Origin: Mactra quadrangularis
Lineage: Eukaryota > Mollusca > Bivalvia > Venerida > Mactridae
DNA: 64,000 nucleotides
NCBI GenBank assembly: GCA_025267735.1
Contig: CM046309.1
Location: 36,493,202-36,557,201 of the forward strand
Direction of reading: 5' to 3'
In this document: positions 14,876 through 48,249 of the stretch, piece after piece
Layout: the number at the start of each line of letters is the position of its first letter
How positions within the stretch are numbered: the stretch's first letter is position 1
The notes under the pieces: generated by a model
Told to the model about the DNA's origin: nothing
Seen by the model: the letters and a program-made list of their open reading frames with translations, nothing else
Database searches by the model: none
Position numbers and translations under genes: made by a program

Positions 14876-15051
14876 TTTAAAAAAGTTTCCTTATAAGTTT
14901 CAAATTCTTCCAGTAAGTTTACTTCTGTCAACTCTGAGTGCTCAACTGTTCCTCGTTCTGAAAGTCCCATGTAGAATGACGCTTTTAAAACAAAATTGAA
15001 CTGTGTTCAAAATCAGTCACCGAGGAGATAATTTAGAGCATGCAAAAAATA

Positions 15052-15380
15052 TGAACGTAAAGTTGGCAGACTCAGCAGACACAGCAGACACAGCAGAAGG
15101 AACGATCCTTCTGCTGTGTCTGCTGGCAGAAGGATAAATCTACAGCAGAAGGAACGATCCTTCTGCTGTGTCTGCTGGCAGAAGGATACATTTACAGCAG
15201 AAGGATCGATCTTTCTGCTGGGTCTGCTGGCAGAAGGATTGAATTATAACAGAAAGATGTGTCTGTTGGCAGAAAGATTTTATAATAACAGAAAGATGTG
15301 TCTGCTGGCAGAAGGATTAAACAACAACAGAATCAATCTTTCTGCCACGTCTGTTGGCAGAATAATTGAATTATAATTTC
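15052..15380 (+). repeat. Left terminal inverted repeat of the 33-kb element
   Basis: Starts TGAACGTAAAGTTGGCAG and continues as about five degenerate ~55-65 bp subunits, each with ATCCTTCTGCTG or CAGAAGGAT and TCTGCTGGCAGAA. The reverse complement of 47910-48238 matches base for base apart from a handful of substitutions. Symmetry continues into the first satellite monomer, which has variants shared only by the two terminal monomers (GATAGTTATGAAAATG). Confidence 0.93.
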
Positions 15381-18300
15381 AAGCCTCAATTTAAGCAAAA
15401 CATGTGATATTATGCATCATTTTAAAGCTGATAGTTATGAAAATGTTTTGATGAGTACATTTTGAACAGTAAATAAAGAAGAAGGGCCTGGTGAGTAAAC
15501 AAAACAGGCCCATTTCGAATGTGAATTTTGTGTTCGACTGACATCCTTCTGCTGTTATTTAACACATGTTTTGTTAATCATTTCATCTATCTGTTCACAA
15601 AATCAAATTTTATATAGAACAAGCTTTAATCTGGTATATAGATGTGCGATAAACTCTATTTAATTGCGACAAATTATACGTTAATATATCGAGTACGAAA
15701 ATTCTCAGTGCGGAAGTTCGGTTCGATATTTTCATTAGAAAAGTGCCAATACATGCTATTTACCGAGTCTTATTGTAAGCCACAATTAAGACAAAATATG
15801 CGATATTATGCATCATTTTAAAGCTTATACCTAGAAAAAGGTTTAGACAGGTCGATTTTGATTTTTTGTAAAAGAATAACAACAAGGAGAGTGTATAAAG
15901 TAGCCCTATTTTCGGACGTACATTTCGGTTTGAGTGACATCCTTCTGCTATAAATAAATACACGTATTCTTAATTAATTTAAAAACTAAATCACAAAATC
16001 AAACTGGCAATAGAATGAGCTTTCTTTTGATGTATATAAGAGTGAATAACTCGACTTAATTTGGACAAAATATATGTTTATATGTCAAGTTCGTAAATTC
16101 ACCCGACCACAGATTGGTTTGATTTTTTCATTGAAATGTGCGAAAACATGCTAATTACCGAGTCTTATTGTAAGCCTTAATTTAGGCAAAACATGTGATA
16201 TAATGCATCATTTTAAAGCTGATTGTTGTAAAATGTTTTGACGGGTACATTTTGAACAGCAAATAAATAATAAGGGCCTGGTGAGTAAACAAAACAGGCC
16301 CATTTTCGAATGTGAATTTTGTGTTCGACTGACATCCTTCTGCTGTTATTTAACACATGTTTTATTAATCATTTCATCTATCTGTTCACAAAATCAAATT
16401 TGATATAGAACAAGCTTTAATCTGGTATAAAGATGTGCGATAAACTCTATTTAATTGCGACAAATTATACGTTAATATATCGAGTACGAAAATTCTCAGT
16501 GCGGAAGTTCGGTTCGATATTTTCATTAAAAAAGTGCCAATACATGCTATTTTCCGAGTCTTATTTTAAGCCACAATTAAGACAAAATATGCGATATTAT
16601 GCATCATTTTAAAGCTTATACATAGAAAAAGGTTTAGACAGGTCGATTTTGAATTTTTGTAAAAGAATAACAACAAGACGAGTGTATAAAGTAGCCCTAT
16701 TTTCGGACGTACATTTCGGTTTGAGTGACATCCTTCTGCTATGAATAAATACACGTATTCTTAATTAATTTAAAAACTAAATCACAAAATCAAACTGGCA
16801 ATAGAATAAGCTTTCTTTTGATGAATATATGAGTGAATAACTCGACTTAATTTGGACAAAATATATGTTTATATGTCAAGTTCGTAAATTTACCCGACCA
16901 CAGTTTGGTTTGATTTTTTCATTGAAATGTGCGAAAACGTGCTAATTACCGAGTCTTATTGTAAGCCTTAATTTAGGCAAAACATGTGATATTATGCATC
17001 ATTTTGAAACTGATTGCTGTAAAAATGTTTTGACGGGTACATTTTGAACAGCAAATAAATAATAAGGGCCTGGTGAGTAAACAAAACAGGCCCATTTTCG
17101 AATGTGAATTTTGTGTTCGACTGACATCCTTCTGCTGTTATTTAACACATGTTTTATTAATCATTTCATCTATCTGTTCACAAAATCAACTTTTATATAG
17201 AACAAGCTTTAATCTGGTATATAGATGTGCGATAAACTCTATTTAATTGCGACAAATTATACGTTAATATATCGAGTACGAAAATTCTCAGTGCGGAAGT
17301 TCGGTTCGATATTTTCCTTAAAAAAGTGCCAATACATGCTATTTTCCGAGTCTTATTTTAAGCCCCAATTAAGACAAAATATGCGATATTATGCATCATT
17401 TTAAAGCTTATACATAGAAAAAGGTTTAGACTGGTCGATTTAGAATTATTGTAAAAGAATAACAGCAAGACGAGTGTATAAAGTAGCCCTATTTTCGGAC
17501 GTACATTTCGGTTTGAGTGACTTCCTTCTGCTATAAATAAATACACGTAATCTTAATTAATTTAAAAACTAATTCGCAAAATCAAACTGGCAATAGAATA
17601 CGCTTTCTTTTGATGTATAAATGAGTGAATAACTCGACTTAATTTGGACAAAATATATGTTTATATGTCAAGTTCGTAAATTTACCCGACCACAGTTTGG
17701 TTTGATTTTTTCATTGAAATGTGCGAAAACGTGCTAATTACCGAGTCTTATTGTAAGCCTTAATTTAGGCAAAACATGTGATATTATGCATCATTTTGAA
17801 ACTGATTGCTGTAAAAATGTTTTGACGGGTACATTTTGAACAGCAAATAAATAATAAGGGCCTGGTGAGTAAGCAAAACAGGCCCATTTTCGAATGTGAA
17901 TTTTGTGTTCGACTGACATCCTTCTGCTGTTATTTAACACATGTTTTATTAATCATTTCATCTATCTGTTCACAAAATCAACTTTTATATAGAACAAGCT
18001 TTAATCTGGTATATAGATGTGCGATAAACTCTATTTAATTGCGACAAATTATACGTTAATATATCGAGTACGAAAATTCTCAGTGCGGAAGTTCGGTTCG
18101 ATATTTTCATTAAAAAAGTGCCAATACATGCTATTTACCGAGTCTTATTCTAAGCCACAATTAAGACAAAATATGCGATATTATGCATCATTTTAAAGCT
18201 TATACCTAGAAAAAGGTTTAGACAGGTCGATTTAGAATTTTTGTAAAAGAACAACAACAAGACGAGTGTATAAAGTAGCCCTATTTTCGGACGTACATTT

Positions 18301-20286
18301 CGGTTTGAGTGACATCCTTCTGCTATAAATAAATACACGTATTCTTAATTAATTTAAAAACTAAATCGCAAAATCAAACTGGCAATAGAATAAGCTTTCT
18401 TTTAATGTATATATGAGTGAATAACTCGACTTAATTTGGACAAAATATATGTTTAAATGTCAAGTTCGTAAATTTTCCCGACCACAGTTTGGTTTGATTT
18501 TTTCATTGAAATGTGCAAAAACGTGCTAATTACCGAGTCATGTTGTAAGCCTAAATTTAGGCAAAACATGTGATATTATGCATCATTTTAAAGCTGATTG
18601 TTGTAAAAATGTTTTGACGGGTACATTTTGAACAGCAAATAATAATAAGGGCCTGGTGAGTAAACAAATCAGGCCCATTTTCGAATGTGAATTTTGTGTT
18701 CGACTGACATCCTTCTGCTGTTATTTAACACATGTTTTATTAATCATTTCATCTATCTGTTCACAAAATCAAATTTTATATAGAACAAGCTTTAATTTGG
18801 TATATAGATGTGCGATAAACTCTATTTAATTGCGACAATTTGAACGTTAATATATCGAGTACGAAAATTCTCAGTGCGGAAGTTCGGTTCGATATTTTCA
18901 TTAGAAAAGTGCCAATACATGCTATTTACCGAGTCTAATTTTAAGCCACAATTAAGACAAAATATGCGATATTATGCATCATTTTAAAGCTTATACATAG
19001 AAAAAGGTTTAGACAGGTCGATTTAGAATTTTTGTAAAAGAATAACAGCAAGACGAGTGTATAAAGTAGCCCTATTTTCGGACGTACATTTCGGTTTGAG
19101 TGACATCCTTCTTCTATAAATAAATACACTTATTTTTAATTTATTTAAAATTTGAATCATAAAATCAAACTGGCAATAGAATAAGCTTTCTTTTAATGTA
19201 TAAATGAGTGAATAACTCGACTTAATTTGGACAAAATATATGTTTTTATGTCAAGTTCGTAAATTTACCCGACCACAGTTTGGTTTGATTTTTTCATTGA
19301 AATGTGCAAAAACGTGCTAATTACCGAGTCATATTGTAAGCCTAAATTTAGGCAAAACATGTGATATTATGCATCATTTTAAAGCTGATTGTTGTAAAAA
19401 TATTTTGACGGGTACATTTTGTACAGTAAACAAATAATAAGGACCTGGTGAGTAAACAAAACAGGCCCATTTTCGAATGTGAATTTTGTGTTCGACTTAC
19501 ATCCTTCTGCGGTTATTTAACACATGTTTTATTAATCATTTCATCTAATTTGGTATATAGATGTGCGATAAACTCTATTTAATTGCGACAATTTGAACGT
19601 TAATATATCGAGTACGAAAATTCTCAGTGCGGAAGTTCGGTTCGATATTTTCATTAGAAAAGTGCCAATACATGCTATTTACCGAGTCTAATTTTAAGCC
19701 ACAATTAAGACAAAATATGCGATATTATGCATCATTTTAAAGCTTATACATAGAAAAAGGTTTAGACAGGTCGATTTAGAATTTTTGTAAAAGAATAACA
19801 GCAAGACGAGTGTATAAAGTAGCCCTATTTTCGGACGTACATTTCGGTTTGAGTGACATCCTTCTTCTATAAATAAATACACGTATTTTTAATTTATTTA
19901 AAATTTGAATCATAAAATCAAACTGGCAATAGAATAAGCTTTCTTTTAATGTATAAATGAGTGAATAACTCGACTTAATTTGGACAAAATATATGTTTTT
20001 ATGTCAAGTTCGTAAATTTACCCGACCACAGTTTGGTTTGATTTTTTCATTGAAATGTGCAAAAACGTGCTAATTACCGAGTCATATTGTAAGCCTAAAT
20101 TTAGGCAAAACATGTGACATTATGCATCATTTTAAAGCTGATTGTTGTAAAAATATTTTGACGGGTACATTTTGTACAGTAAACAAATAATAAGGACCTG
20201 GTGAGTAAACAAAACAGGCCCATTTTCGAATGTGAATTTTGTGTTCGACTTACATCCTTCTGCGGTTATTTAACACATGTTTTATT
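15381..20286 (+). repeat. 792-bp dimeric satellite array, left arm, part 1
   Basis: Head-to-tail units of 791-792 bp. Each unit is two related ~396-bp halves: both contain ATTATGCATCATTTTAAAGC, ACATCCTTCTGCT and CCGAGTCTTATT but differ elsewhere (GGGCCTGGTGAGTAAAC only in one, CTATTTTCGGACGTACATTT only in the other). One unit near 19545 carries a 39-bp deletion. The last 9 bp (TGTTTTATT, 20278-20286) are duplicated across the inserted foldback element. Confidence 0.95.
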
Positions 20287-20376
20287 GGGTCCTCCTAAAA
20301 CACTGACCGCTTAACTGACGAGTTAAATATAGTGCGCTTAACTGACGAGTTAAATATAGTGCAATTATGTTCTTAA

Positions 20377-21211
20377 AGGCCGGGCTTCAACTATAAAAGA
20401 GAGAGAATCTGGAAAATGGCCACTTCTCTCTGACTCTCTGAGCAGTGAACGTGTTAAACCTGAGAAAGAAAATCTAGAACTGTGACAAAGTTACCCATCA
20501 GATTTTAATGAAATTTTACTAATTGATAGTTCAATACATTTTCAGCTTTATTTGAAATTTTCAGTTTTATATGTTACTTAAAAATAGTACTTTCAAAAGA
20601 AAAATTGATAAACAAGTTTAAAAAATTCAAATTTGACTGACAGGTGATTAGGGGTTCATAACCTTCACTTAGCCAATCGAAAGAGAGTTCACGACCTACA
20701 CTTAGCCAGTAATAATATCTTCTCACTGACCCTCATAAAAAATTCCCACAACTGTTGATTCATAGATTATTCCTGTAGTGCGGTGTTACATTTATATACA
20801 TGTATAATCTATTTTAGTATCAATCATGAAATAATTCCAGGATGACCAGTTACTGTATTTGAATTTAATTGTAGTTGTAAAATGAACAAAATCAGATGTT
20901 TTAGTGTAAAATAATTCTTGAAGTTATTTTGATAATGAAATATTGTTACACTATAGAAATATTTAGTAGTTTACAACACTAGATGGTTCAATACAAATAT
21001 GATATCTAACTTCTCTTATATTCTTAGATTAGAAACACATGTTGGAGTTTTCTCTGTATAAACATGTAGTAAATTTAGTAGTAACTTTGTTTACAATCTT
21101 GAAAATTCCAGCCGTTGGTAACCTCTGATAACGTAGGTCAAACCCTCCCCCTCTCTCCTTATCGGCTTAATTGCTAACCACCCGGTTTTTTCAAGAAATG
21201 AAGTCCGGCCT
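20377..21211. mobile_element. 835-bp TTAA-flanked MITE nested in the foldback left arm
   Basis: 13-bp inverted termini AGGCCGGGCTTCA / TGAAGTCCGGCCT, flanked by TTAA on both sides (20373-20376 and 21212-21215). The right arm of the foldback has the empty site: the complement of its sequence near 25556 reads TTCTTAACTGACC, with one TTAA. TTAA duplications are typical of piggyBac and Kolobok-type DNA transposons. No ORF of note. Confidence 0.92.
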
Positions 21212-22039
21212 TTAACTGACCAGTTAAACAAAGAAGGGATTAAAAATGACTGTTTCGCTTGATTGTTTTTGAGATATTGGCGATATTGTTAGATTATTTT
21301 TATATATTTTATGATGATGATGTGATTTATTACCAAATTTAATAATGTCATTATAAAAATTAATGATTTGTTTAAAAGAAAAATGTTTTTAAAAAATACT
21401 TAATTAAAAATAGAAAGATTAGATAGCGACATTTATGATTTTACATTAAGAATAATTTTTCAAATTAATATTTTCAGAGAATTTAACAAAAAAACAAGAT
21501 GTATTTATCTCAGAAGAAAATGATTTAAATATTATTGGATGTCAGAATATTTAACTGACCAAATGAGGGTAACATGTTTAACTGACCAAAATGAATAAAA
21601 AATTGTTTTACTGACCAAATGAGTAAGGGATTATATTTTAATTAAAAGCGTTAAATGAGCAAACTAATATGTCTTACACTTTACTGACCATTTAGTCATT
21701 GGTAAAATAAGAAATAAGATGTTTTTTTAGCAAATTAAATGGCCAAATGACTATAAAACGCTTAACTGACGAAAAGAATATTGAACGAATTACTGACCAA
21801 CGATTGCACGGATCAATAAACACTCTATGTCCAACTGGTCAGCGTTTTAGGATGTCAATTCTTAACTGACCAGTTAAATATAGAGTGGTTATTCGACCAT
21901 GAAAATATAACTGACCAAATTGAAAAAAAATATATATTGAAAGATTTTATTTCTTCTGTTTATTGCAATAGTAGATAAATGATTAAAGGATATGAATGAA
22001 AGCTTTTTTAAACTAACCAAAATGTTGAAAGCTTAACTG

Positions 22040-22560
22040 GACTAATATAAAATGCTTAACTGACCAAATGAATACTGAATGATTAACTGACCAAAAGAAT
22101 ATAGAATGCTTAACTGACCAAATGTATATAGAATGCTTAACTGACCAAATGTATATAGAATCTTTAACTGACCAAATGAATATAGAGTGCTTAACTGACC
22201 AAATGTATATAGAATGATTAACTGACCAAATGTATATAGAATGCTTAACTGACCAAATGAATATAGAATGCTTAACTGACCAAACGTATATAGAATCTTT
22301 AACTGACCAAATGTATATAGAATCTTTAACTGACCAAATGAATATAGAAGGCTTAACTGACCAAATGGATATAGAAAAGCTTAACTGACCAAAGAATGCT
22401 TAACTGACCAATTGAATATAGAGCACTTAACTGACCAATTGAATATGTGACACTTAACTGACCAAATGAATATGGAGCGCTTAACTGACCAATTGAAAAT
22501 AGAAAGCTTAACTGACCAAATGAATATAGAAGGTTTAACTGATCAAATGAGCATGGAATG
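22040..22560 (+). repeat. 27-bp minisatellite, left arm of foldback
   Basis: About 19 head-to-tail copies of a 27-bp unit beginning TTAACTGACCAAATG, followed by AATATAGAATGC, with one- or two-base variants and a few length-variant units. Mirror image of 24235-24770. Confidence 0.92.
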
Positions 22561-24234
22561 ATAGTTTAATAACGGACGTTAAACTGATCAAACTAATGTC
22601 GAAGACTTCACTGGCCTTTTATTCATGGTCTAAATAAATACCAAAAAAAATTTTTTAATCAATTTTAATGACCAAATCGCTGTAAAACGCTTAACTGACG
22701 ATACGAATATAGAATGCTTTACTGACCAATGATTTCACGGATCAATAAACACTCTTTGTTTAACTGGTCAGTTAAGGATCACAATTCTTAACTGACGAGT
22801 TAAATATAGAGTGGTCATTAGACCGTGAAAATATAACTGACCAAAATGAAGAAACTCTTTGTATTGAAAGATTTCCTTGTATTTGTTTCTTGCAATAACA
22901 GATGAATAATCAGAAGAAATGTAATCTAAAAAAATAAACCGACCAAAGGAATATAGACCATTTGAAAATGTATTGCTAAATGACTAAATAAATTTGAAGA
23001 CTTAACTGACCAAATCATAGCAGAATGCCCCCGTCTTTGTATAAAGGTTGCTGACAAACTTTCAAAAGAACTTTATTTGAAAGTTAAGCGTTCTATATTC
23101 ATTTGTTCAATCAAGGACCCTATGTCCTTGGTCAATAAAGCCTTCTATATTCAAAGACGGAAGATTTACATTACGGGTCGATGCACACTCTTTATTTAAT
23201 TGGTCAGTTTTTTAGGATCGTGATGTCTTAACTGACCAGTACAGCGACTCATGTTGTGTTTCATGTTGTAAATATTCATGACATAGTCGTTTTTACCGAT
23301 TCTCATGTATGGGAGCGAAATCTTTGAAAAAGCTTGACATGCCGGAAAATAATAATGTTTCCTTTCTTCATAAAATAAAATAAAGCGCACCGCCTACTCC
23401 AATAATACTTTTGCGCGGCGAATACGGACGATTACTTATTGCTACAAACCAAAAAAATTTAGATTATTTAATCACTGTACTGTCAAAACCAAGTGTTAAT
23501 GTGATAATTGGATTATCTCACACATGCTTTTAAGTGACCGACTAAGACACGTGTCATAAATGATTAGGTGCGAAAGTTACATTCAAGATTGGTCGTTTAA
23601 TTGAAACATGAGCGTATTTATCATATCAGTCAGAAGTAAGGTCTCGATTATTGAATATAACACATGATGCACTTTAACTGACCAAAAAGTATTGCTATTT
23701 TTTATATAGTAAATACACTGTAAATGTAAATTTAACTATTAAAATTTTTCAACATGTTTGTTTGTTATGTTAAAAATACAAACAGAAAAAAAACTTTGTT
23801 TGAATATATAATTAGACAGTTGACAAGTGACAATGGTCAATAGTGCGTAACTGATTGCTAAGTGTTTGACACTTGTCAAAACTTGATTACATTAACAAGA
23901 TTAACGGCAGAATTATTAATCGAATTATCTCCGATACACTGTTAATGACGATATTGTACTACAAAGGAATGTTGATCGACTACTATATTTATTTGGTCAG
24001 TTGATTAAATCTTCTATATTCATTTGGTGAGATAAGCGATCTACCATCATTATATATAATTTATTCGGCCAATTAAAAAATACTTTCTGTAGCGTTTTTT
24101 ATAAATAATTTTACGGTTGAATAACCACTATATATTTAACTGGTCAGTTAAGAATTATGATCCTTAACTGACCAGTTGAACATACAGTAATAATCGTGTA
24201 ATCATAATTTTTGTCAGCTAAGCAATCTTCTAGC

Positions 24235-24770
24235 CTTCTAGATTCATTTGGTCAGTTAAGCATTCTATATTCATTTGGTCAGTTAAGCCTTCTAGATTCA
24301 TTTGGTCAGTTAAGCATTCTATATACATTTGGTCAGTTAAGCATTCTATATTCATTGGTCAGCATTCTATATTCATTTGGTCAGTTAAAGATTCTATATA
24401 CATTTGGTCAGTTAAAGATTCTATATATATTTGGTCAGTTAAGCCTTCTATATTCATTTGGTCAGTTAAAGATTCTATATACATTTGGTCAGTTAAAGAT
24501 TCTATATACGTTTGGTCAGTTAAGCATTCTATATTCATTTGGTCAGTTAAGCATTCTATATACATTTGGTCAGTTAATCATTCTATATACATTTGGTCAG
24601 TTAAGCACTCTATATTCATTTGGTCAGTTAAAGATTCTATATACATTTGGTCAGTTAAGCATTCTATATACATTTGGTCAGTTAAGCATTCTATATTCTT
24701 TTGGTCAGTTAATCATTCAGTATTCATTTGGTCAGTTAAGCATTTTATATTAGTCCAGTTAAGCTTTCAA
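24235..24770 (-). repeat. 27-bp minisatellite, right arm of foldback
   Basis: Inverted counterpart of the left-arm array (CATTTGGTCAGTTAA repeated). Because 27 is divisible by three, a 180-codon frame runs through it as a nine-residue repeat; this is an arithmetic by-product and not a gene. Confidence 0.92.
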
Positions 24771-25657
24771 CATTTTGGTTAGTTTAAAAAAAGCTTTCAT
24801 TCATATCCTTTAATCATTTATCTACTATTGCAATAAACAGAAGAAATAAAATCTTTCAATATATATTTTTTTTCAATTTGGTCAGTTATATTTTCATGGT
24901 CGAATAACCACTCTATATTTAACTGGTCAGTTAAGAATTGACATCCTAAAACACTGACCAGTTAAACAAAGAGTGTTTATTCATCCGTGAAATCATTGGT
25001 CAGAAATTCGTTCAATATTCTTTTCGTCAGTTAAGCGTTTAACGGCTATTTGGCCATTTAATTTGATAAACACATCTTATTTTTTAATTTAACCAATGGT
25101 CAATAAATCATTCGACATTAGTTTGCTCATTAAACGCTCGTTATTGAAATATTAAAATATACTCACTAACTCATTTGGTCAGTAAACCATCTTTATTCAT
25201 TTGGTCAGTTAAGCATTTTACACTCATTTGATTACTAATTACTCATTTAAATATCATATTTAAATAATTTTATTAGGAAAATACGTCTTGCCCTACTGTT
25301 AAATACACTAAAATTAATTAATTTGATTTTGTGAAAAATTATCATATGTCACATCGCTATCGCATTTTTCTACTTCAAAGTATCTTTTATGCAATTTCAT
25401 AAAAAATCAATCTAATCATAATTTCTTACAATGACATTATTGAATAAGATAATATACCACATCATCATCATAAAATTTCAACAAAAAACTCCAACAATAT
25501 CTCAAAAACACTCAAGCAATACAGTCATTTTTAATCCCTTCTTTATTTAACTGGTCAGTTAAGAAGATAATTGCACTATATTTAACTCGTCAGTTAAGCG
25601 CACTATATTTAACTCGTCAGTTAAGCGGTCAGTGTTTTAGGATTCGCCTGTTTTATT

Positions 25658-28600
25658 AATCATTTCATCTATCTGTTCACAAAATCAACTTTTAGATAGA
25701 ACAAGCTTTAATTTGGTGTATAGATGTGTGATAAACTCTATTTAATTGCGACAGATTATACGTTAATATATCGAGTACGAAAATTCTCAGTGCGGAAGTT
25801 CGTTCGATACTTTCATTCAAAAAGTGCAAATACATGCTATTTACCGAGTCTTATTCTAAGCCCCAATTAAGACAAAATATGCGATATTATGCATCATTTT
25901 AAAGCTTATACATAGAAAAAGATTTAGACAGGTCGATTTAGAATTTTTGTAAAAGAATAACAGCAAGACGAGTGTATAAATTAGCCCTATTTTCGGACGT
26001 ACATTTCGGTTTGAGTGACTTCCTTCTGCTATAAATAAATACACGTAATCTTAATTAATTTCAAAACTAAATCGCAAAATCAAACTAACAATAGAATAAG
26101 CTTTCTTTTGATGTATAAATGAGTGAATAACTCGACTTAATTTGGACAAAATTTATGTTTTTATATCAAGTTCGTAAATTTATCCGACCACAGTTTGGTT
26201 TGATTTTTTCATTGAAATGTGCGAAAACATGCTAATTACCGAGTCTTATTGTAAGCCTAAATTTAAGCAAAACATGTGATATTATGCATCATTTTAAAGC
26301 TGATTGTTGTAAAAATGTTTTGACGGGTACATTTTGAACAGCAAATAAATAATAAGGGCCTGGTGAGTAAGCAAAACAGGCACCTTTTCGAATGTGAATT
26401 TTGTGTTCGACTGACATCCTTCTGCTGTTATTTAACACATGTTTTATTAATCATTTCATCTATCTGTTCACAAAATCAAATTTTATATAGAACAAGCTTT
26501 AATCTGGTATAAAGATGTGCGATAAACTCTATTTAATTGCGACAAATTATACGTTAATATATCGAGTACGAAAATTCTCAGTGCGGAAGTTCGGTTCGAT
26601 ATTTTCATTAAAAAAGTGCCAATACATGCTATTTACCGAATCTTATTTTAAGCCCAAAGTAAGACAAAATATGCGATATTATGCATCATTTTAAAGCTTA
26701 TACATAGAAAAAGGATTAGACAGGTCGATTTAGAATTTTTGTAAAAGAATAACAACAAGACGAGTGTATAAAGTAGCCCTATTTTCGGACGTACATTTCG
26801 GTTTGAGTGACATCCTTCTGCTATAAATAAATACACGTATTCTTAATTAATTTAAAAACTTAATCTCAAATTCAAACTCGCAATTGAATAAGCTTACTTT
26901 TGATGTATATATGAGTGAATAACTCGACTTAATTTGGACAAAATATATGTTTATATGTCAAGTTCGTAAATTCACCCGACCCCAGATTGGTTTGATTTTT
27001 TCATTGAAATGTGCGAAAACATGCTAATTACCGAGTCTTATTGTAAGCCTAAATTTAAGCAAAACATGTGATATTATGCATCATTTTAAAGCTGATTGTT
27101 GTGAAAATGTTTTGACGGGTACATTTTGAACAGCAAATAAATAATAAGGGCCTGGTGAGTAAGCAAAACAGGCACCTTTTCGAATGTGAATTTTGTGTTC
27201 GACTGACATCCTTCTGCTGTTATTTAACACATGTTTTATTAATCATTTCATCTATCTGTTCACAAAATCAAATTTTATATAGAACAAGCTTTAATCTGGT
27301 ATAAAGATGTGCGATAAACTCTATTTAATTGCGACAAATTATACGTTAATATATCGAGTACGAAAATTCTCAGTGCGGAAGTTCGGTTCGATATTTTCAT
27401 TAAAAAAGTGCCAATACATGCTATTTACCGAATCTTATTTTAAGCCCAAAGTAAGACAAAATATGCGATATTATGCATCATTTTAAAGCTTATACATAGA
27501 AAAAGGTTTAGACAGGTCGATTTTGAATTTTTGTAAAAGAATAACAACAAGACGAGTGTATAAAGTAGCCCTATTTTCGGACGTACATTTCGGTTTGAGT
27601 GACATCCTTCTGCTATAAATAAATACACATAATCTTAATTAATTTCAAAACTGAATCGCAAAATCAAACTGGCAATAGAATAAGCTTTCTTTTGATGTAT
27701 AAATGAGTGAATAACTCGACTTAATTTGGACAAAATATATGTTTATATGTCAAGTTCGTAAATTTACCCGACCACAGTTTGGTTTGATTTTTTCTTTGAA
27801 ATGTGCGAAAACGTGCTAATTACCGAGTCTTATTGTAAGCCTAAATTTAGGCAAAACATGTGATATTATGCATCATTTTGAAAATGATTGCTGTAAAAAT
27901 GTTTTGACGGGTACATTTTGAACAGCAAATAAATAATAAGGGCCTGGTGAGTAAACAAAACAGGCCCATTTTCGAATGTGAATTTTGTGTTCGACTGACA
28001 TCCTTCTGCTGTTATTTAACACATGTTTTATTAATCATTTCATCTATCTGTTCACAAAATCAAATTTTATATAGAACAAGCTTTAATCTGGTATATAGAT
28101 GTGCGATAAACTCTATTTAATTGCGACAAATTATACGTTAATATATCGAGTACGAAAATTCTCAGTGCGGAAGTTCGGTTCGATATTTTCATTAAAAAAG
28201 TGCCAATACATGCTATTTACCGAGTCTTATTCTAAGCCACAATTAAGACAAAATATGCAATATTATGCATCATTTTAAAGCTTATGCCTAGAAAAAGGTT
28301 TAGACAGGTCGATTTTGAATTTTTGTAAAAGAATAACAACAAGACGAGTGTATAAAGTAGCCCTATTTTCGGACGTACATTTCGGTTTGAGTGACATCCT
28401 TCTTCTATAAATAAATACACGTATTTTTAATTTATTTAAAATTTGAATCATAAAATCAAACTGGCAATAGAATAAGCTTTCTTTTAATGTATAAATGAGT
28501 GAATAACTCGACTTAATTTGGACAAAATATATGTTTTTATGTCAAGTTCGTAAATTTACCCGACCACAGTTTGGTTTGATTTTTTCATTGAAATGTGCAA

Positions 28601-31357: not shown

Positions 31358-31612
31358 TTTCTCACATTTGTATACCAAAAGAAAGCTTGTTCTATATATA
31401 ATTTTATTATAGATTGAATAGATTGGTGAAGTAATTTTATAAAAGATGCATTTATTAATAGCAGAAGGATGTCCAACTGTCGAACAAAAGTATACATTTG
31501 AAAATGGGCCTGTTTTGTCCACTCGCAGTGCCCTTATTGTTGACTTATTTTTCAAAATGTACCCGTGAAAACATTTTCCAAACAATCAGCCTGAAAATGA
31601 TGAAATTCTGAC
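31358..31612 (-). repeat. Inverted, diverged satellite monomer at the core boundary
   Basis: Orientation flips: from about 31358 the sequence reads as the complement of the satellite (ACCAAAAGAAAGCTTG, AGCAGAAGGATGTC, GGGCCTGTTTTG), ending near AAAATGATGAAATTC. The preceding bases (TTGGTGTATAAATGTGAG) pair with TCACATTTGTATACCAA, so a local palindrome centres at about 31.3 kb. Confidence 0.8.
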
Positions 31613-33310: not shown

Positions 33311-33345
33311 TTTAATCAGTATTCTAAAAAGTTTAAAATTTGACA

Positions 33346-34572: not shown

Positions 34573-34575
34573 CCA

Positions 34576-36675: not shown

Positions 36676-39600
36676 TCAACATCGAAAATGGGCCTGTTTT
36701 GTTTACTTACCAGGCCCTTATTATTTATTCACTGTTCAAAATGTACCCGTCAAAACATTTTTACAACAATCAGCTTTAAAATGATGCATAATATCACATG
36801 TTTTGCCTAAATTTAGGCTTAAAATAAGACTCGGTAATTAGCATGTTTTTGCCCATTTCAATGAAAAAATCAAACCAAACTGTGGTCGGGTGAATTTACG
36901 AACTTGACATAAAAACATATATTTTGTCCAAATTAAGTCGAGTTATTCACTCATTTATACATTAAAAGAAAGCTTATTCTATTGCCAGTTTGATTTTGTG
37001 ATTCAAATTTTAAATAAATAAAAAATACGTGTATTTATTTATAGCAGAAGGATGTCACTCAAACCGAAATGTACGTCCGAAAATAGGGCTACTTTATACA
37101 CTCGTCTTGCTGTTATTCTTTTAAAAAAAATTCTAAATCGACCAGTCTAAACCTTTTTCTATGTATAAGCTTTAAAATGATGCATAATATCGCATATTTT
37201 GTCTTAATTGGGGCTTAAAATAAGACTCGGAAAATAGCATGTATTGGCACTTTTTTAATGAAAATATCGAACCGAACTTCCGCACTGAGAATTTTCGTAC
37301 TCGATATATTAACGTATAATTTGTCGCAATTAAATAGAGTTTATCGCACATCTATATACCAGATTAAAGCTTGTTCTATATAAAATTTGATTTTGTGAAC
37401 AGATAGATGAAATGATTAATAAAACATGTGTTAAATAACAGCAGAAGGATGTCAGTCGAACACAAAATTCACATTCGAAAATGGGCCTGTTTTGTTTACT
37501 CACCAGGCCCTTATCATTTATTTGCTGTTCAAAATGTACCCGTCAAAACATTTTTACAACAATCAGCTTTAAAATGATGCATAATATCACATGTTTTGCC
37601 TAAATTTAGGCTTACAATAAGACTCAGTAATTAGCATGTTTTCGCACATTTCAATGAAAAAATCAAACCAAACTGTGGTCGGATAAATTTACGAACTTGA
37701 CATAAAAACATAAATTTTGTCCAAATTAAGTCGAGTTATTCACTCATTTATACATCAAAAGAAAGCTTATTCTATTGCCAGTTTGATTTTGCGATTTAGT
37801 TTTTAAATTAATTAAGATTACGTGTATTTATTTATAGCAGAAGGAAGTCACTCAAACCGAAATGTACGTCCGAAAATAGGGCTACTTTATACACTCGTCT
37901 TGCTGTTATTCTTTTACAATAATTCTAAATCGACCAGTCTAAACCTTTTTCTATGTATAAGCTTTAAAATGATGCATAATATCGCATATTTTGTCTTAAT
38001 TGGGGCTTAAAATAAGACTCGGAAAATAGCATGTATTGGCACTTTTTTAATGAAAATATCGAACCGAACTTCCGCACTGAGAATTTTCGTACTCGATATA
38101 TTAACGTATAATTTGTCGCAATTAAATAGAGTTTATCGCACATCTATATACCAGATTAAAGCTTGTTCTATATAAAATTTGATTTTGTGAACAGATAGAT
38201 GAAATGATTAATAAAACATGTGTTAAATAACAGCAGAAGGATGTCAGTCGAACACAAAATTCACATTCGAAAATGGGCCTGTTTTGTTTACTCACCAGGC
38301 CCTTATCATTTATTTGCTGTTCAAAATGTACCCGTCAAAACATTTTTACAACAATCAGCTTTAAAATGATGCATAATATCACATGTTTTGCCTAAATTTA
38401 GGCTTACAATAAGACTCAGTAATTAGCATGTTTTCGCACATTTCAATGAAAAAATCAAACCAAACTGTGGTCGGATAAATTTACGAACTTGACATAAAAA
38501 CATACATTTTTTCCAAATTAAGTCGAGTTATTCACTCATTTATACATCAAAAGAAAGCTTATTCTATTGCCAGTTTGATTTTGCGATTTAGTTTTTAAAT
38601 TAATTAAGATTACGTGTATTTATTTATAGCAGAAGGAAGTCACTCAAACCGAAATGTACGTCCGAAAATAGGGCTACTTTATACACTCGTCTTGCTGTTA
38701 TTCTTTTACAATAATTCTAAATCGACCTGTCTAAACCTTTTTCTATGTATAAGCTTTAAAATGATGCATAATATCGCATATTTTGTCTTAATTGGGACTT
38801 AAAATAAGACTCGGAAAATAGCATGTATTGGCACTTTTTTAATGAAAATATCGAACCGAACTTCCGCACTGAGAATTTTCGTACTCGATATATTAACGTA
38901 TAATTTGTCGCAATTAAATAGAGTTTATCGCACATCTATATACCAGATTAAAGCTAGTTCTATATAAAATTTGATTTTGTGAACAGATAGATGAAATGAT
39001 TAATAAAACATGTGTTAAATAACAGCAGAAGGATGTCAGTCGAACACAAAATTCACATTCGAAAATGGGCCTGTTTTGTTTACTCACCAGGCCCTTATCA
39101 TTTATTTGCTGTTCAAAATGTACCCGTCAAAACATTTTTACAACAATCAGCTTTAAAATGATGCATAATATCACATGCTTTGCCTAAATTTAGGCTTACA
39201 ATAAGACTCAGTAATTAGCATGTTTTCGCACATTTCAATGAAAAAATCAAACCAAACTGTGGTCGGATAAATTTACGAACTTGACATAAAAACATAAATT
39301 TTGTCCAAATTAAGTCGAGTTATTCACTCATTTATACATCAAAAGAAAGCTTATTCTATTGTTAGTTTGATTTTGCGATTTAGTTTTGAAATTAATTAAG
39401 ATTACGTGTATTTATTTATAGCAGAAGGAAGTCACTCAAACCGAAATGTACGTCCGAAAATAGGGCTACTTTATACACTCGTCTTGTTGTTATTCTTTTA
39501 CAAAAATTCTAAATCGACCTGTCTAAACCTTTTTCTATGTATAAGCTTTAAAATGATGCATAATATCGCATATTTTGTCTTAATTGGGGCTTAGAATAAG

Positions 39601-42600
39601 ACTCGGTAAATAGCATGTATTTGCACTTTTTGAATGAAAGTATCGAACGAACTTCCGCACTGAGAATTTTCGTACTCGATATATTAACGTATAATCTGTC
39701 GCAATTAAATAGAGTTTATCACACATCTATACACCAAATTAAAGCTTGTTCTATCTAAAAGTTGATATTGTGAACAGATAGATGAAATGATTAATAAAAC
39801 ATGTGTTAAATAACCGCAGAAGGATGTCAGTCGAACACAAAATTCACATTCGAAAATGGGCCTGTTTTGTTTACTCACCAGGTCCTTATTATTTGTTAAC
39901 TGTACAAAATGTACCCGTCAAAACATTTTTACAACAATCAGCTTTAAAATGATGCATTATATCACATGTTTTGCCTAAATTGAGGCTTACAATATGACTC
40001 GGTAATTAGCACGTTTCCGCACATTTCAATGAAAAAATCAAACCAAACTGTGGTCGGGTAAATTTACGAACCTGACATATAAACATATATTTTGTCCAAA
40101 TTAAGTCGAGCTATTCACTCATTTATACATCAAATGAAAGCTTATTCTATTGCCAGTTGGATTTTGTGATTCAAGTTTTAAATAGATTAGAAATACGTGT
40201 ATTTATTTATAGCAGAAGGATGTCACTCAAACCGAAATGTACGTCCGAAAATAGGGCTACTTTATACACTCGTCTTGCTGTTATTCTTTTTCAAAACTTC
40301 TAAATCGACCTGTCTAAATCTTTTTCTATATATAAGCTTTAAAATGATGCATAATATCGCATATTTTGTCGTGATTGTGGCTTAGAATAAGACTCGGTAA
40401 ATAGCATGTATTTACACTTTTTTTAATGAAAATATCGAACCGAACTTTCGCACCGAGAATTTTCGTACTCGATATATTATCGTATAATTGTCGCAATTAG
40501 ATAGAGTTTATTGCACATCTATATACCAGATTAAAGCGTGTTCTATTTACAATTTGACTTTGTGAACAGATAGATGAAATGATTAATAAAACATGTGTTA
40601 AATAACAGCAGAAGGATGTCAGTCGAACACAAAATTCACATTCGAAAATGGGCCTGTTTTGTTTACTCACCAGGCCCTTATCATTTATTTGCTGTTCAAA
40701 ATGTACCCGTCAAAACATTTTTACAACAATCAGCTTTAAAATGATGCATAATATCACATGTTTTGCCTAACTTTAGGCTTAAAATAAGACTCGGTAATTA
40801 GCATGTTTTTGCCCATTTCAATGAAAAAATCAAACCAAACTGTGGTCGGGTGAATTTACGAACTTGACATAAAAACATATATTTTGTCCAAATTAAGTCG
40901 AGTTATTCACTCATTTATACATTAAAAGAAAGCTTATTCTATTGCCAGTTTGATTTTGTGATTCAAATTTTAAATAAATAAAAAATACGTGTATTTATTT
41001 ATAGCAGAAGGATGTCACTCAAACCGAAATGTACGTCCGAAAATAGGGCTACTTTATACACTCGTCTTGCTGTTATTCTTTTAAAAAAAAATTCTAAATC
41101 GACCAGTCTAAACCTTTTTCTATGTATAAGCTTTAAAATGATGCATAATATCGCATATTTTGTCTTAATTGGGGCTTAAAATAAGACTCGGAAAATAGCA
41201 TGTATTGGCACTTTTTTAAGGAAAATATCGAACCGAACTTCCGCACTGAGAATTTTCGTACTCGATATATTAACGTATAATTTGTCGCAATTAAATAGAG
41301 TTTATCGCACATCTATATACCAGATTAAAGCTTGTTCTATATAAAATTTGATTTTGTGACCGGATAGATGAAATGATTAATAAAACATGTGTTAAATAAC
41401 AGCAGAAGGATGTCAGTCGAACACAAAATTCACATTCGAAAATGGGCCTGTTTTGTTTACTCACCAGGCCCTTATCATTTATTTGCTGTTCAAAATGTAC
41501 CCGTCAAAACATTTTTACAACAATCAGCTTTAAAATGATGCATAATATCACATGTTTTGCCTAAATTTAGGCTTACAATAAGACTCAGTAATTAGCATGT
41601 TTTCGCACATTTCAATGAAAAAATCAACCAAACTGTGGTCGGATAAATTTACGAACTTGACATAAAAACATAAATTTTGTCCAAATTAAGTCGAGTTATT
41701 CACTCATTTATACATCAAAAGAAAGCTTATTCTATTGCCAGTTTGATTTTGCGATTTAGTTTTTAAATTAATTAAGATTACGTGTATTTATTTATAGCAG
41801 AAGGAAGTCACTCAAACCGAAATGTACGTCCGAAAATAGGGCTACTTTATACACTCGTCTTGCTGTTATTCTTTTACAATAATTCTAAATCGACCTGTCT
41901 AAACCTTTTTCTATGTATAAGCTTTAAAATGATGCATAATATCGCATATTTTGTCTTAATTGGGGCTTAAAATAAGACTCGGAAAATAGCATGTATTGGC
42001 ACTTTTTTAATGAAAATATCGAACCGAACTTCCGCACTGAGAATTTTCGTACTCGATATATTAACGTATAATTTGTCGCAATTAAATAGAGTTTATCGCA
42101 CATCTATATACCAGATTAAAGCTTGTTCTATATAAAATTTGATTTTGTGAACAGATAGATGAAATGATTAATAAAACATGTGTTAAATAACAGCAGAAGG
42201 ATGTCAGTCGAACACAAAATTCACATTCGAAAATGGGCCTGTTTTGTTTACTCACCAGGCCCTTATCATTTATTTGCTGTTCAAAATGTACCCGTCAAAA
42301 CATTTTTACAACAATCAGCTTTAAAATGATGCATAATATCACATGTTTTGCCTAAATTTAGGCTTACAATAAGACTCAGTAATTAGCATGTTTTCGCACA
42401 TTTCAATGAAAAAATCAAACCAAACTGTGGTCGGATAAATTTACGAACTTGACATAAAAACATAAATTTTGTCCAAATTAAGTCGAGTTATTCACTCATT
42501 TATACATCAAAAGAAAGCTTATTCTATTGCCAGTTTGATTTTGCGATTTAGTTTTTAAATTAATTAAGATTACGTGTATTTATTTATAGCAGAAGGAAGT

Positions 42601-45600
42601 CACTCAAACCGAAATGTACGTCCGAAAATAGGGCTACTTTATACACTCGTCTTGCTGTTATTCTTTTACAATAATTCTAAATCGACCTGTCTAAACCTTT
42701 TTCTATGTATAAGCTTTAAAATGATGCATAATATCGCATATTTTGTCGTGATTGTGGCTTAGAATAAGACTCGGTAAATAGCATGTATTTGCACTTTTTT
42801 TAATGAAAATATCGAACCGAACTTTCGCACCGAGAATTTTCGTACTCGATATATTATCGTATATTTGTCGCAATTAGATAGAGTTTATTGCACATCTATA
42901 TACCAGATTAAAGCTTGTTCTATTTAAAATTTGACTTTGTGAACAGATAGATGAAATGATTAATAAAACATGTGTTAAATAACAGCAGAAGGATGTCAGT
43001 CGAACACAAAATTCACATTCGAAAATGGGCCTGTTTTGTTTACTTACCAGGCCCTTATAATTTATTCACTGTTCAAAATGTACCCGTCAAAATATTTTCA
43101 CAACAATCAGCTTTAAAATGATGCATAATATCACATGTTTTGCCTAAATTTAGGCTTAAAATAAGACTCGGTAATTAGCATGTTTTTGCCCATTTCAATG
43201 AAAAAATCAAACCAAACTGTGGTCGGGTGAATTTACGAACTTGACATAAAAACATATATTTTGTCCAAATTAAGTCGAGTTATTCACTCATTTATACATT
43301 AAAAGAAAGCTTATTCTATTGCCAGTTTGATTTTGTGATTCAAATTTTAAATAAATAAAAAATACGTGTATTTATTTATAGCAGAAGGATGTCACTCAAA
43401 CCGAAATGTACGTCCGAAAATAGGGCTACTTTATACACTCGTCTTGCTGTTATTCTTTTTAAAAAAAATTCTAAATCGACCAGTCTAAACCTTTTTCTAT
43501 GTATAAGCTTTAAAATGATGCATAATATCGCATATTTTGTCTTAATTGGGGCTTAAAATAAGACTCGGAAAATAGCATGTATTGGCACTTTTTTAAGGAA
43601 AATATCGAACCGAACTTCCGCACTGAGAATTTTCGTACTCGATATATTAACGTATAATTTGTCGCAATTAAATAGAGTTTATCGCACATCTATATACCAG
43701 ATTAAAGCTTGTTCTATATAAAATTTGATTTTGTGAACAGATAGATGAAATGATTAATAAAACATGTGTTAAATAACAGCAGAAGGATGTCAGTCGAACA
43801 CAAAATTCACATTCGAAAATGGGCCTGTTTTGTTTACTCACCAGGCCCTTATCATTTATTTGCTGTTCAAAATGTACCCGTCAAAACATTTTTACAACAA
43901 TCAGCTTTAAAATGATGCATAATATCACATGTTTTGCCTAAATTTAGGCTTACAATAAGACTCAGTAATTAGCATGTTTTCGCACATTTCAATGAAAAAA
44001 TCAAACCAAACTGTGGTCGGATAAATTTACGAACTTGACATAAAAACATAAATTTTGTCCAAATTAAGTCGAGTTATTCACTCATTTATACATCAAAAGA
44101 AAGCTTATTCTATTGCCAGTTTGATTTTGCGATTTAGTTTTTAAATTAATTAAGATTACGTGTATTTATTTATAGCAGAAGGAAGTCACTCAAACCGAAA
44201 TGTACGTCCGAAAATAGGGCTACTTTATACACTCGTCTTGCTGTTATTCTTTTACAATAATTCTAAATCGACCTGTCTAAACCTTTTTCTATGTATAAGC
44301 TTTAAAATGATGCATAATATCGCATATTTTGTCTTAATTGGGGCTTAAAATAAGACTCGGAAAATAGCATGTATTGGCACTTTTTTAATGAAAATATCGA
44401 ACCGAACTTCCGCACTGAGAATTTTCGTACTCGATATATTAACGTATAATTTGTCGCAATTAAATAGAGTTTATCGCACATCTATATACCAGATTAAAGC
44501 TTGTTCTATATAAAATTTGATTTTGTGAACAGATAGATGAAATGATTAATAAAACATGTGTTAAATAACAGCAGAAGGATGTCAGTCGAACACAAAATTC
44601 ACATTCGAAAATGGGCCTGTTTTGTTTACTCACCAGGCCCTTATCATTTATTTGCTGTTCAAAATGTACCCGTCAAAACATTTTTACAACAATCAGCTTT
44701 AAAATGATGCATAATATCACATGTTTTGCCTAAATTTAGGCTTACAATAAGACTCAGTAATTAGCATGTTTTCGCACATTTCAATGAAAAAATCAAACCA
44801 AACTGTGGTCGGATAAATTTACGAACTTGACATAAAAACATAAATTTTGTCCAAATTAAGTCGAGTTATTCACTCATTTATACATCAAAAGAAAGCTTAT
44901 TCTATTGCCAGTTTGATTTTGCGATTTAGTTTTTAAATTAATTAAGATTACGTGTATTTATTTATAGCAGAAGGAAGTCACTCAAACCGAAATGTACGTC
45001 CGAAAATAGGGCTACTTTATACACTCGTCTTGCTGTTATTCTTTTACAATAATTCTAAATCGACCTGTCTAAACCTTTTTCTATGTATAAGCTTTAAAAT
45101 GATGCATAATATCGCATATTTTGTCTTAATTGGGGCTTAAAATAAGACTCGGAAAATAGCATGTATTGGCACTTTTTAATGAAAATATCGAACCGAACTT
45201 CCGCACTGAGAATTTTCGTACTCGATATATTAACGTATAATTTGTCGCAATTAAATAGAGTTCATCGCAATTCTATATACCAGATTAAAGCTTGTTCTAT
45301 ATAAAATTTGATTTTGTGAACAGATAGATGAAATGATTAATAAAACACGTGTTAAATAACAGCAGAAGGATGTCAGTCGAACACAAAATTCACATTCGAA
45401 AATGGGCCTGTTTGTTTACTCACCAGGCCCTTATCATTTATTTGCTGTTCAAAATGTACCCGTCAATACATTTTTACAACAATCAGCTTTAAAATGATGC
45501 ATAATATCACTTGTTTTGCCTAAATTTAGGCTTACAATAAGACTCAGTAATTAGCATGTTTTCGCACATTTCAATGAAAAAATCAAACCAAACTGTGGTC

Positions 45601-47909
45601 GGATAAATTTACGAACTTGACATAAAAACATAAATTTTGTCCAAATTAAGTCGAGTTATTCACTCATTTATACATCAAAAGAAAGCTTATTCTATTGCCA
45701 GTTTGATTTTGCGATTTAGTTTTTAAATTAATTAAGATTACGTGTATTTATTTATAGCAGAAGGAAGTCACTCAAACCGAAATGTACGTCCGAAAATAGG
45801 GCTACTTTATACACTCGTCTTGCTGTTATTCTTTTACAATAATTCTAAATCGACCTGTCTAAACCTTTTTCTATGTATAAGCTTTAAAATGATGCATAAT
45901 ATCGCATATTTTGTCTTAATTGGGGCTTAAAATAAGACTCGGAAAATAGCATGTATTGGCACTTTTTTAATGAAAATATCGAACCGAACTTCCGCACTGA
46001 GAATTTTCGTACTCGATATATTAACGTATAATTTGTCGCAATTAAATAGAGTTTATCGCACATCTTTATACCAGATTAAAGCTTGTTCTATATAAAATTT
46101 GATTTTGTGAACAGATAGATGAAATGATTAATAAAACATGTGTTAAATAACAGCAGAAGGATGTCAGTCGAACACAAAATTCACATTCGAAAATGGGCCT
46201 GTTTTGTTTACTCACCAGGCCCTTATTATTTATTTGCTGTTCAAAATGTACCCGTCAAAACATTTTTACAACAATCAGCTTTAAAATGATGCATAATATC
46301 ACATGTTTTGCCTAAATTTAGGCTTACAATATGACTCAGTAATTAGCATGTTTTCGCACATTTCAATGAAAAAATCAAACCAAACTGTGGTCGGATAAAT
46401 TTACGAACTTGACATAAAAACATAAATTTTGTCCAAATTAAGTCGAGTTATTCACTCATTTATACATCAAAAGAAAGCTTATTCTATTGCCAGTTTGATT
46501 TTGCGATTTAGTTTTTAAATTAATTAAGATTACGTGTATTTATTTATAGCAGAAGGAAGTCACTCAAACCGAAATGTACGTCCGAAAATAGGGCTACTTT
46601 ATACACTCGTCTTGCTGTTATTCTTTTACAATAATTCTAAATCGACCTGTCTAAACCTTTTTCTATGTATAAGCTTTAAAATGATGCATAATATCGCATA
46701 TTTTGTCTTAATTGGGGCTTAAAATAAGACTCGGAAAATAGCATGTATTGGCACTTTTTTAAGGAAAATATCGAACCGAACTTCCGCACTGAGAATTTTC
46801 GTACTCGATATATTAACGTATAATTTGTCGCAATTAAATAGAGTTTATCGCACATCTTTATACCAGATTAAAGCTTGTTCTATATAAAATTTGATTTTGT
46901 GAACAGATAGATGAAATGATTAATAAAACATGTGTTAAATAACAGCAGAAGGATGTCAGTCGAACACAAAATTCACATTCGAAAATGGGCCTGTTTTGTT
47001 TACTCACCAGGCCCTTATTATTTATTTGCTGTTCAAAATGTACCCGTCAAAACATTTTTACAACAATCAGCTTTAAAATGATGCATAATATCACATGTTT
47101 TGCCTAAATTTAGGCTTACAATATGACTCAGTAATTAGCATGTTTTCGCACATTTCAATGAAAAAATCAAACCAAACTGTGGTCGGATAAATTTACGAAC
47201 TTGACATAAAAACATAAATTTTGTCCAAATTAAGTCGAGTTATTCACTCATTTATACATCAAAAGAAAGCTTATTCTATTGCCAGTTTGATTTTGCGATT
47301 TAGTTTTTAAATTAATTAAGATTACGTGTATTTATTTATAGCAGAAGGAAGTCACTCAAACCGAAATGTACGTCCGAAAATAGGGCTACTTTATACACTC
47401 GTCTTGCTGTTATTCTTTTACAATAATTCTAAATCGACCTGTCTAAACCTTTTTCTATGTATATGCTTTAAAATGATGCATAATATCGCATATTTTGTCT
47501 TAAATGTGGCTTAAAATAAGACTCGGTAAATAGCATGTATTGGCACTTTTCTATTGAAAATATCGAACCGAACTTCCGCACTGAGAATTTTCGTACTCGA
47601 TATATTAACGTTCAAATTGTCGCAATTAAATAGAGTTTTATCGCACATCTTTATACCAGATTAAAGCTTGTTCTATATAACATTTGATTTTGTGAACAGA
47701 TAGATGAAATGATTAATAAAACATGTGTTAAATAACAGCAGAAGGATGTCAGTCGAACACAAAATTCACATTCGAAATGGGCCTGTTTTGTTTACTCACC
47801 AGGCCCTTATTCTTTATTTACCGTTCAAAATGTACTCATCAAAACATTTTCATAACTATCAGCTTTAAAATGATGCATAATATCACATGTTTTGCTTAAA
47901 TTGAGGCTT
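36676..47909 (-). repeat. 792-bp dimeric satellite array, right arm
   Basis: About fourteen dimers in inverted orientation at 790-792-bp spacing. Two of them (near 41.0 and 43.4 kb), like the units near 35.4 and 37.0 kb, share an A-run variant (TTTTAAAAAAAATTC) that breaks the 62-codon frame seen in the others. Variant units occur in mirror order to the left arm: going outward from the core, the GTATCGAACGAACTTCC unit (39.64 kb) precedes the three-Phe unit (40.2 kb), as 29.76 then 29.0 kb on the left. Confidence 0.95.
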
Positions 47910-48238
47910 GAAATTATAATTCAATTATTCTGCCAACAGACGTGGCAGAAAGATTGATTCTGTTGTTGATTAATCCTTCTGCCAGCAGACACATCTTTCT
48001 GTTATTATTAAATCTTTCTGCCAACAGACACATCTTTCTGTTATAATTCAATCCTTCTGCCAGCAGACCCAGCAGAAAGATTGATCCTTCTGCTGTAAAT
48101 GTATCCTTCTGCCAGCAGACACAGCAGAAGGATCGTTCCTTCTGCTGTAGATTTATCCTTCTGCCAGCAGACACAGCAGAAGGATCGTTCCTTCTGCTGT
48201 GTCTGCTGTGTCTGCTGAGTCTGCCAACTTTACGTTCA
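47910..48238 (-). repeat. Right terminal inverted repeat of the 33-kb element
   Basis: Inverted copy of 15052-15380, ending CTGCCAACTTTACGTTCA, directly followed by the 11-bp target duplicate at 48239-48249. The ORFs that cross this block (QQKERSFCCVCW-type repeats) are translations of the subrepeats, not genes. Confidence 0.93.
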
Positions 48239-48249
48239 TGCAAAAAATA

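Follow-up and report, generated by a model that had tools for sequence, protein, structure and literature searches.

Satellite arrays of about 11 kb in the terminal inverted repeats of a putative foldback transposon beside a duplicated GT61 gene in probable bivalve DNA

Are satellites born inside transposons, and are they carried by them? The locus described here allows both questions to be asked directly, as it offers, in base-level sequence and with adjoining genes, an element of exactly defined borders in which each of the two terminal inverted repeats (TIRs) contains an array of satellite scale, and the variants in these arrays record exchange within and between the two arms. Bivalve MITEs with internal tandem repeats have reportedly been found, to go by the title of a paper. 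The window, i.e. the whole 64-kb stretch of DNA that was analyzed, most likely comes from a bivalve by its sequence. The first of its two GT61 glycosyltransferase genes is matched best in Mactra antiquata, where 77% of the query aligns at 78% identity; other named matches, among the 50 listed, are from Mercenaria, Mya and Dreissena. The two GT61 copies are 95% identical over 1,676 columns, and the 33-kb segment at issue is placed between them, upstream of the first (Table 1). A search of the whole window against Rfam at gathering scores gave no match.

Table 1. Position of the features discussed, numbered from the first base of the window.
Feature	Position	Strand	Remarks
Tubulin gene	5946-6965		
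GT61 glycosyltransferase gene, first copy	13412-14875	-	Pfam PF04577
Left target-site duplication TGCAAAAAATA	15041-15051 (15042-15050 if 9 bp)	+	exact match to 48239-48249
Left terminal block	15052-15375	+	324 bp, differing from right block at 3
Left satellite array, outer part	15376-20286	-	792-bp dimers of 396-bp monomers; closes with the 9-bp left duplication of the nested element
Nested foldback-like element	20287-25648	.	5,362 bp; TIRs and inverted 27-bp tandem arrays
Left satellite array, inner part	25649-31361	-	
Centre	31362-36676	.	diverged satellite, non-satellite DNA, rearranged satellite
Right satellite array	about 36677-47914	+	11.2 kb, with a subset of near-identical dimers
Right terminal block	47915-48238	-	inverted copy of left block
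Right target-site duplication TGCAAAAAATA	48239-48249	+	exact match to 15041-15051
GT61 gene, second copy	51597-53087	-	orientation as first copy
Paralogous empty site, single TGCAAAAAATA	53874-53884	+	upstream of second GT61 copy

Exploring the borders of the segment, we found the matching inverted termini that a preliminary description had claimed: comparison of the terminal blocks over 324 positions, the right one reversed, yields 3 differences, a count that excludes a fourth, which is an end gap arising from the choice of block end. The terminal unit TGAACGTAAAGTTGGCAG opens the inverted ends at 15052 and, reversed, at 48238, and in the left block it is followed by tandem sub-repeats of 9 bp, 52 bp and 39 bp with internal palindromes. 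Without its duplications the element extends over 15052-48238 (33,187 bp), or 27,816 bp once the nested element and one copy of the nested duplication are taken away. When both strands of the window were searched, the 11-mer TGCAAAAAATA was present at three places, i.e. the two ends and 53874. The direct repeats noticed earlier are thus identical on both sides, while the length of 11 bp that had been assigned to them is not established. On either side, the base adjoining the inverted end is A when read in the direction of the element, and a 9-bp duplication GCAAAAAAT with ends ATGAACG...CGTTCAT therefore yields the identical string and the identical empty site; as the sequence reads, 11 bp with ends TGAACG and 9 bp with ends ATGAACG would fit equally well. 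P elements duplicate 8 bp of their target, and an assignment to the P superfamily of the Galileo type was rejected given the 9 or 11 bp here versus the 7 bp of Galileo. Scanning the window with the terminal 30 bp located them at the two outer ends only, the next best places having 10 mismatches, which implies that neither of the blocks has the two ends of a small, complete element. In viral contigs, a 19-mer of the terminus gave one match, which we attribute to chance as just 29 bases align to the termini (89.7%), and a satellite 24-mer with 25 occurrences in the window matched zero contigs of a scan that possibly did not cover the window's own genome.

The third TGCAAAAAATA stands upstream of the second GT61 copy, at a site with no satellite. 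The joined flanks of the element are identical to this site at 183 of 235 columns (E 5e-47), and the alignment crosses the junction. Most of the signal is supplied by the right flank, to which the left flank adds the 32 bases that precede the 11-mer. With the alignment anchored at the junction, 0.15% of 4,000 placements drawn at random from the flanking DNA attained the score of the left flank (P = 0.0015); when this flank is aligned freely and alone, its match to the paralogous site is unremarkable (score 27, shuffle P = 0.015), the eight best sampled windows elsewhere scoring 32-36 and overlapping one another at three places (20451-20461, 53951-53961 and 55381-55411). Between the GT61 gene start and the 32-base left match the copies align poorly and the second copy is ~650 bp longer; the divergence of these upstream regions is too great for a useful insertion date. 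Given that the paralogous empty site carries one TGCAAAAAATA, the segment most likely results from one insertion, in which either the whole segment or a smaller precursor entered. This support for a single insertion from a paralogous empty site, provided by the duplicated GT61 gene, is a new element of the present analysis.

Inside the terminal blocks, the satellite forms mirrored arrays of 10,615 bp (left, without the nested element) and 11,238 bp (right), giving TIRs of about 10.9 and 11.6 kb when terminal block and array are taken together. At a period of 396 bp neighbouring units are ~70% identical, and at a period of 792 bp the identity is 96-97% in the right arm and ~94-95% in the inner left arm. 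Both arrays start directly after the terminal block and at the same point of the monomer, with the first motif at offset 167 in both. This 13-bp motif, ACAGCAGAAGGAT, is present in the terminal block and, about once per 396-bp monomer, in the satellite. Allowing up to two mismatches, we counted 27 copies in the left array and 28 in the right, all of one orientation within an arm, plus six in each terminal block and six in the centre, while 30.8 kb of flanks and the 5.4-kb nested element contain none. That block and satellite have a 13-mer in common appears moderately unlikely by chance (P = 0.0135 versus 2000 shuffles of the satellite, where the longest match was 15), and the longest match between the terminal block and 74 flank windows was at most 12. 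Apart from the 13-bp motif, the similarity of the terminal block to two left-arm satellite monomers was not above that of shuffles.

The segment had been described as a 33-kb palindrome of opposed satellite, a picture that holds for the mirrored arrays of 10.6 and 11.2 kb and fails in two respects, as the left arm is interrupted and the centre is disordered and not a simple fold. At the centre, diverged satellite (31353-31602) gives way to ~3 kb of non-satellite DNA (31603-34582), which consists mostly of two diverged copies (31685-32911 and 33327-34570; 63% identity), both containing inverted motifs in their interior (GTGCAAGTACC or GTGCAAATACC), and the rearranged satellite at 34963-36676 flips its orientation at 36118 and again near 36677. 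There is no ORF of at least 110 aa in the centre, where the scan for ORFs of at least 60 aa covered 31341-35000. The Pfam matches of the 24 ORFs of at least 60 aa in 20281-25660 and 31341-35000 include no transposase: 17 of these ORFs had no match at E up to 1 and seven had weak matches. Within 31341-35000 alone, 12 of the 13 ORFs matched nothing at E values up to 1 and the other had one match at E 0.1, below the cut-off. The only match to pass its cut-off was TBCC (26.4 versus 24.8 bits), in an ORF of the nested element (24234-24779); it is probably a repeat artefact, as this ORF reads through the 27-bp array.

The nested element that interrupts the left arm is flanked by a 9-bp duplication of its own, TGTTTTATT, at 20278-20286 and 25649-25657. 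Its two ends differ at four of the first six bases and then have TCCTAAAACACTGACC in common, its arms of ~1.35 kb are 84.8% identical over 1,376 columns, and its 27-bp arrays (22044-22550 and 24232-24751, with ~19 and 19.5 copies) run in opposite orientation. Joining its flanks in a script restored a sequence in which 169 of 169 bases match uninterrupted satellite at 29531-29699. Judged by these matches, the nested element inserted into an array that was already present. It looks like a member of a second foldback-type family with tandem-repeat arms, a hint that the outer element may not be the sole case of such a process.

To characterize the history of the arrays we compared 13 dimers per arm, leaving out partial units at both array ends and at the centre. 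Mean identity within an arm was 94.6% on the left and 96.9% on the right, and it was 95.2% between arms, the left-arm values being lowered by dimer L06, which is without about 39 bp, as gaps were counted. The 169 left-right pairs differ by 1.5-7.7% (average 4.3%). Seven right-arm dimers (R02-R05, R08, R12 and R13) are 98.9-99.9% identical to one another, a degree of likeness that we read as recent local amplification or homogenisation in that arm. Among minor variants, i.e. alleles found in two or three of the 26 dimers, eight are common to L11 and R10 alone, ten more to L11, R10 and R07, and nine to L07, L12 and R11 alone. Types also switch inside single dimers, most clearly in R07; unequal exchange and conversion would be expected to produce such switching together with rare variants common to both arms. 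For 7 of the 26 dimers the nearest relative belongs to the opposite arm. Read from outside inwards, the order of types is alike in both arms, the best run pairing L10-L12 with R09-R11; in a test that was chosen after the pattern was seen, with 2000 permutations for each run length, this gave P = 0.004, with P = 0.0105 for runs of two and P = 0.0035 for runs of four. Pairing dimers by mirrored position raises their identity very little above that of the remaining left-right pairs (95.4% versus 95.2%), and mirroring over whole diagonals was not significant (P = 0.30 over offsets). Since dimer types are common to both arms and partly in the same order, the plain reading suggests that a multi-dimer array either existed in both arms ahead of their divergence or passed from one to the other by copying, and that the right arm was partly homogenised later.

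Together, these data make it probable, in our judgement, that the segment is a non-autonomous foldback DNA transposon whose TIRs consist of the 324-bp terminal block followed by a satellite array of about 11 kb. The element would have entered upstream of one of the duplicated GT61 copies in a single integration of transposase type that duplicated 9 or 11 bp of target, with a transposase supplied in trans. An enzyme of the Mutator superfamily is the most likely source, though none was seen among the ORFs scanned. Growth of the arrays within the TIRs would have come about through conversion and through unequal exchange, also between the arms, most likely in part before and in part after insertion, and the 13-bp motif, recurring about once per 396-bp monomer, is a candidate secondary site for the transposase. 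The preliminary description had likewise proposed a non-autonomous DNA transposon with a palindromic satellite; a transposon-type insertion carrying satellite is upheld, with the paralogous empty site behind it, and the satellite may either have been carried in or have grown there.

The last point leads to a variant of this explanation, not exclusive of it, in which what inserted was a small foldback element and almost the entire array is due to later growth at the site. We regard this variant as a serious contender, if one somewhat short of an even chance. The near-identity of the seven right-arm dimers speaks for it, as recent amplification or homogenisation, and so do the identical target duplications and the 3 differences in 324 bp of TIR, which suggest a fairly young insertion; moreover, the closest left-right dimer pair (12 of 791 positions) shows no significant excess of divergence over the terminal blocks (Fisher p = 0.57). 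It is opposed by the average left-right distance and by the outermost dimers, as L01 and R01 differ at 32 of 791 positions compared with 3 of 324 in the blocks (Fisher p = 0.0044). Divergence of dimers beyond that of the blocks implies that several types are older than the latest state that the blocks had in common, provided that the blocks were not specially conserved or converted. The partly shared order of types in the two arms argues in the same direction. Growth of most of the array after insertion is nevertheless compatible with everything observed.

Far less probable is that two copies of a short element, one on either side, came to enclose an older satellite palindrome, be it as a composite transposon or coincidentally. 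The modest length of the terminal block, merely 324 bp, and its lack of above-shuffle similarity to the two monomers compared, the 13-bp motif apart, would agree with such an origin, but it does not account for terminal 30-bp sequences confined to the two outer ends in the window scan, for a satellite that starts in the same register in both arms, or for a paralogous site without satellite. We consider it very unlikely that the palindrome is an assembly or library artefact produced by a fold-back chimera. Long palindromes are a known class of artefact in long-read libraries; however, every one of the 169 left-right dimer pairs differs, by at least 1.5% and up to 7.7%, the nested element is in the left arm only and the large near-identical dimer set in the right arm only, the flanking DNA is unlike at the two ends, and an empty paralogous site does not fit a chimera, although the exact array length may be affected by assembly. 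Least probable of all is a Helitron or Helentron with a central tandem array as in oysters, for although bivalve Helentrons carry satellite-like central arrays (PMC7492417, PMC11136912), Helitrons are described as making no target duplications (PMC7492417), and the present locus has a target duplication, matching TIRs and an array mirrored in both arms.

Returning to the foldback transposon, a further proposal is that the whole 27.8-kb element with more than 20 dimers moved as one unit, and that each monomer adds a transposase-binding motif, so that growth of the array would help movement. We advance it tentatively, as a possibility that we hold with less confidence than growth in place. If true, it would mean that cut-and-paste transposition is able to bring higher-order satellite arrays into the neighbourhood of genes.

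As far as sequence can tell, the outer element has the anatomy of a foldback transposon. Foldback elements are described as having long TIRs built of tandem repeats (PMC4079207), and here long TIRs comprise a terminal domain and tandem sub-repeats; a target duplication at a precise insertion is seen in the flanking repeats and the paralogous empty site, and the middle, variable and often non-coding in foldback elements, appears so here on the Pfam scan of the ORFs in 31341-35000. For Mutator-like elements (MULEs), TIRs of >100 bp are given (PMC5225508), a length that the 324-bp block with its array exceeds, and against the 8-10 bp of a Mutator duplication the outer element has 11 bp as read, with 9 bp fitting equally. 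Two described families tie the foldback architecture to the Mutator superfamily. Tm1, a Mutator/Foldback family of root-knot nematodes, is described with composite TIRs of variable tandem-repeat numbers, nested elements and mainly 9-bp duplications (PMC3169594). It resembles the bivalve element in its composite tandem-repeat TIRs, its nesting and, if the duplication here is one of 9 bp, its duplication length, and differs in having units of ~14 bp, copies of 1,080 and 2,593 bp and a Phantom-type transposase, none having been found here (PMC3169594). Muta1, a MULE of Aedes aegypti that is called a type 2 foldback element, combines a terminal palindromic motif with subterminal tandem repeats in its TIR and makes 8-9 bp duplications; unlike the bivalve element it is autonomous, with 3,198 bp and 12-bp repeats (PMC5225508).

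Further systems share traits with the locus. Galileo of Drosophila is reported to have long, internally repetitive TIRs whose internal repeats hold further transposase binding sites (PMC3688188, PMC3573991), and these extra sites, a tested ground on which repeats in a TIR can be of consequence, provide a model for the 13-bp motif (PMC3688188), although Galileo belongs to the P superfamily, makes 7-bp duplications and has longest TIRs of about 1.26 kb (PMC3688188, PMC3573991). The Helentrons of Crassostrea, with their satellite-like central arrays, are like the present element bivalve mobile elements carrying tandem repeats (PMC7492417, PMC8268682, PMC11136912); they differ in that the array lies between two flanking modules, without target duplication and without mirrored TIR arrays. 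Among the literature matches listed, as far as their titles and the starts of their abstracts tell and without this being proof of absence, none concerned a foldback element this large, or any foldback element in a mollusc, and in the accessible text of PMC8268682, PMC11136912, PMC5139131 and PMC7492417 foldback appears solely in mentions or references of Tetris.

It is Tetris of Drosophila virilis (PMC4079207) that was overlooked when the preliminary description stated that no described element has this layout. Described from D. virilis and D. americana, Tetris is non-autonomous, with a TIR made up of a terminal flanking domain, tandem repeats of 220 bp and an inner domain, a middle without apparent coding capacity, and duplications of 8-10 bp (PMC4079207). 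A 37-bp stretch is common to its terminal domain and its repeat, its TIRs reach up to 1,735 bp, its repeats have grown into satellite arrays of up to 66 copies, and DNA fibres show long repeat arrays between two terminal domains (PMC4079207). Its authors proposed that the TIR repeats of foldback elements seed satellites, adding that larger arrays may disrupt transposition (PMC4079207). Compared by description, Tetris is a close parallel in anatomy, with its terminal domain, TIR repeats, non-coding middle and growth into satellite. What the bivalve copy has beyond the description of Tetris is both ends with their duplications in one sequence, TIRs of ~10.9 and 11.6 kb, higher-order dimers of 792 bp and a position near genes, and in this sense it looks like a new and unusually large example of a known foldback kind.

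The duplicated GT61 glycosyltransferase gene, one copy of which lies on each side of the outer foldback-type segment, shows 95% identity between its tandem copies across 1.68 kb. Identity is 84% in the downstream DNA and 72-82% in the five best aligned pieces upstream. Comparing the coding sequences, we found 60 differences in 1,464 bases, distributed over codon positions 1, 2 and 3 as 13, 20 and 27, and this spread suggests that the copies have been under weak constraint or subject to conversion. Upstream of the second copy, ~650 bp have no counterpart upstream of the first and contain an 85-bp tandem duplication.

The centre of the outer element carries two diverged copies, possibly remnants of another element; both contain internal inverted motifs, GTGCAAGTACC or GTGCAAATACC. 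The satellite in the centre changes orientation at 36118 and near 36677, forming a small local palindrome. The left satellite arm hosts an inserted second foldback-like element, which has a duplication of 9 bp and inverted 27-bp arrays of ~19 and ~19.5 copies.

Outside the outer element, the first two palindromes listed are 88-90% self-complementary, and the second and third resemble each other (79-84%). A diverged repeat is dispersed at several sites in both flanks.

Positions of the features within the window
Feature	Position	Remark
GT61 glycosyltransferase, tandem copies	13412-14875; 51597-53087	
Tandem duplication	53248-53417	
Diverged copies, centre	31685-32911; 33327-34570	63% identity
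Satellite with orientation flips, centre	34963-36676	
Second foldback-like element	20287-25648	
Short imperfect palindromes	8500-8639; 3841-3915; 63481-63561	MITE size
Diverged dispersed repeat	4983-5238; 10031-11194; 55761-55890; 58545-58679	100-200 bp
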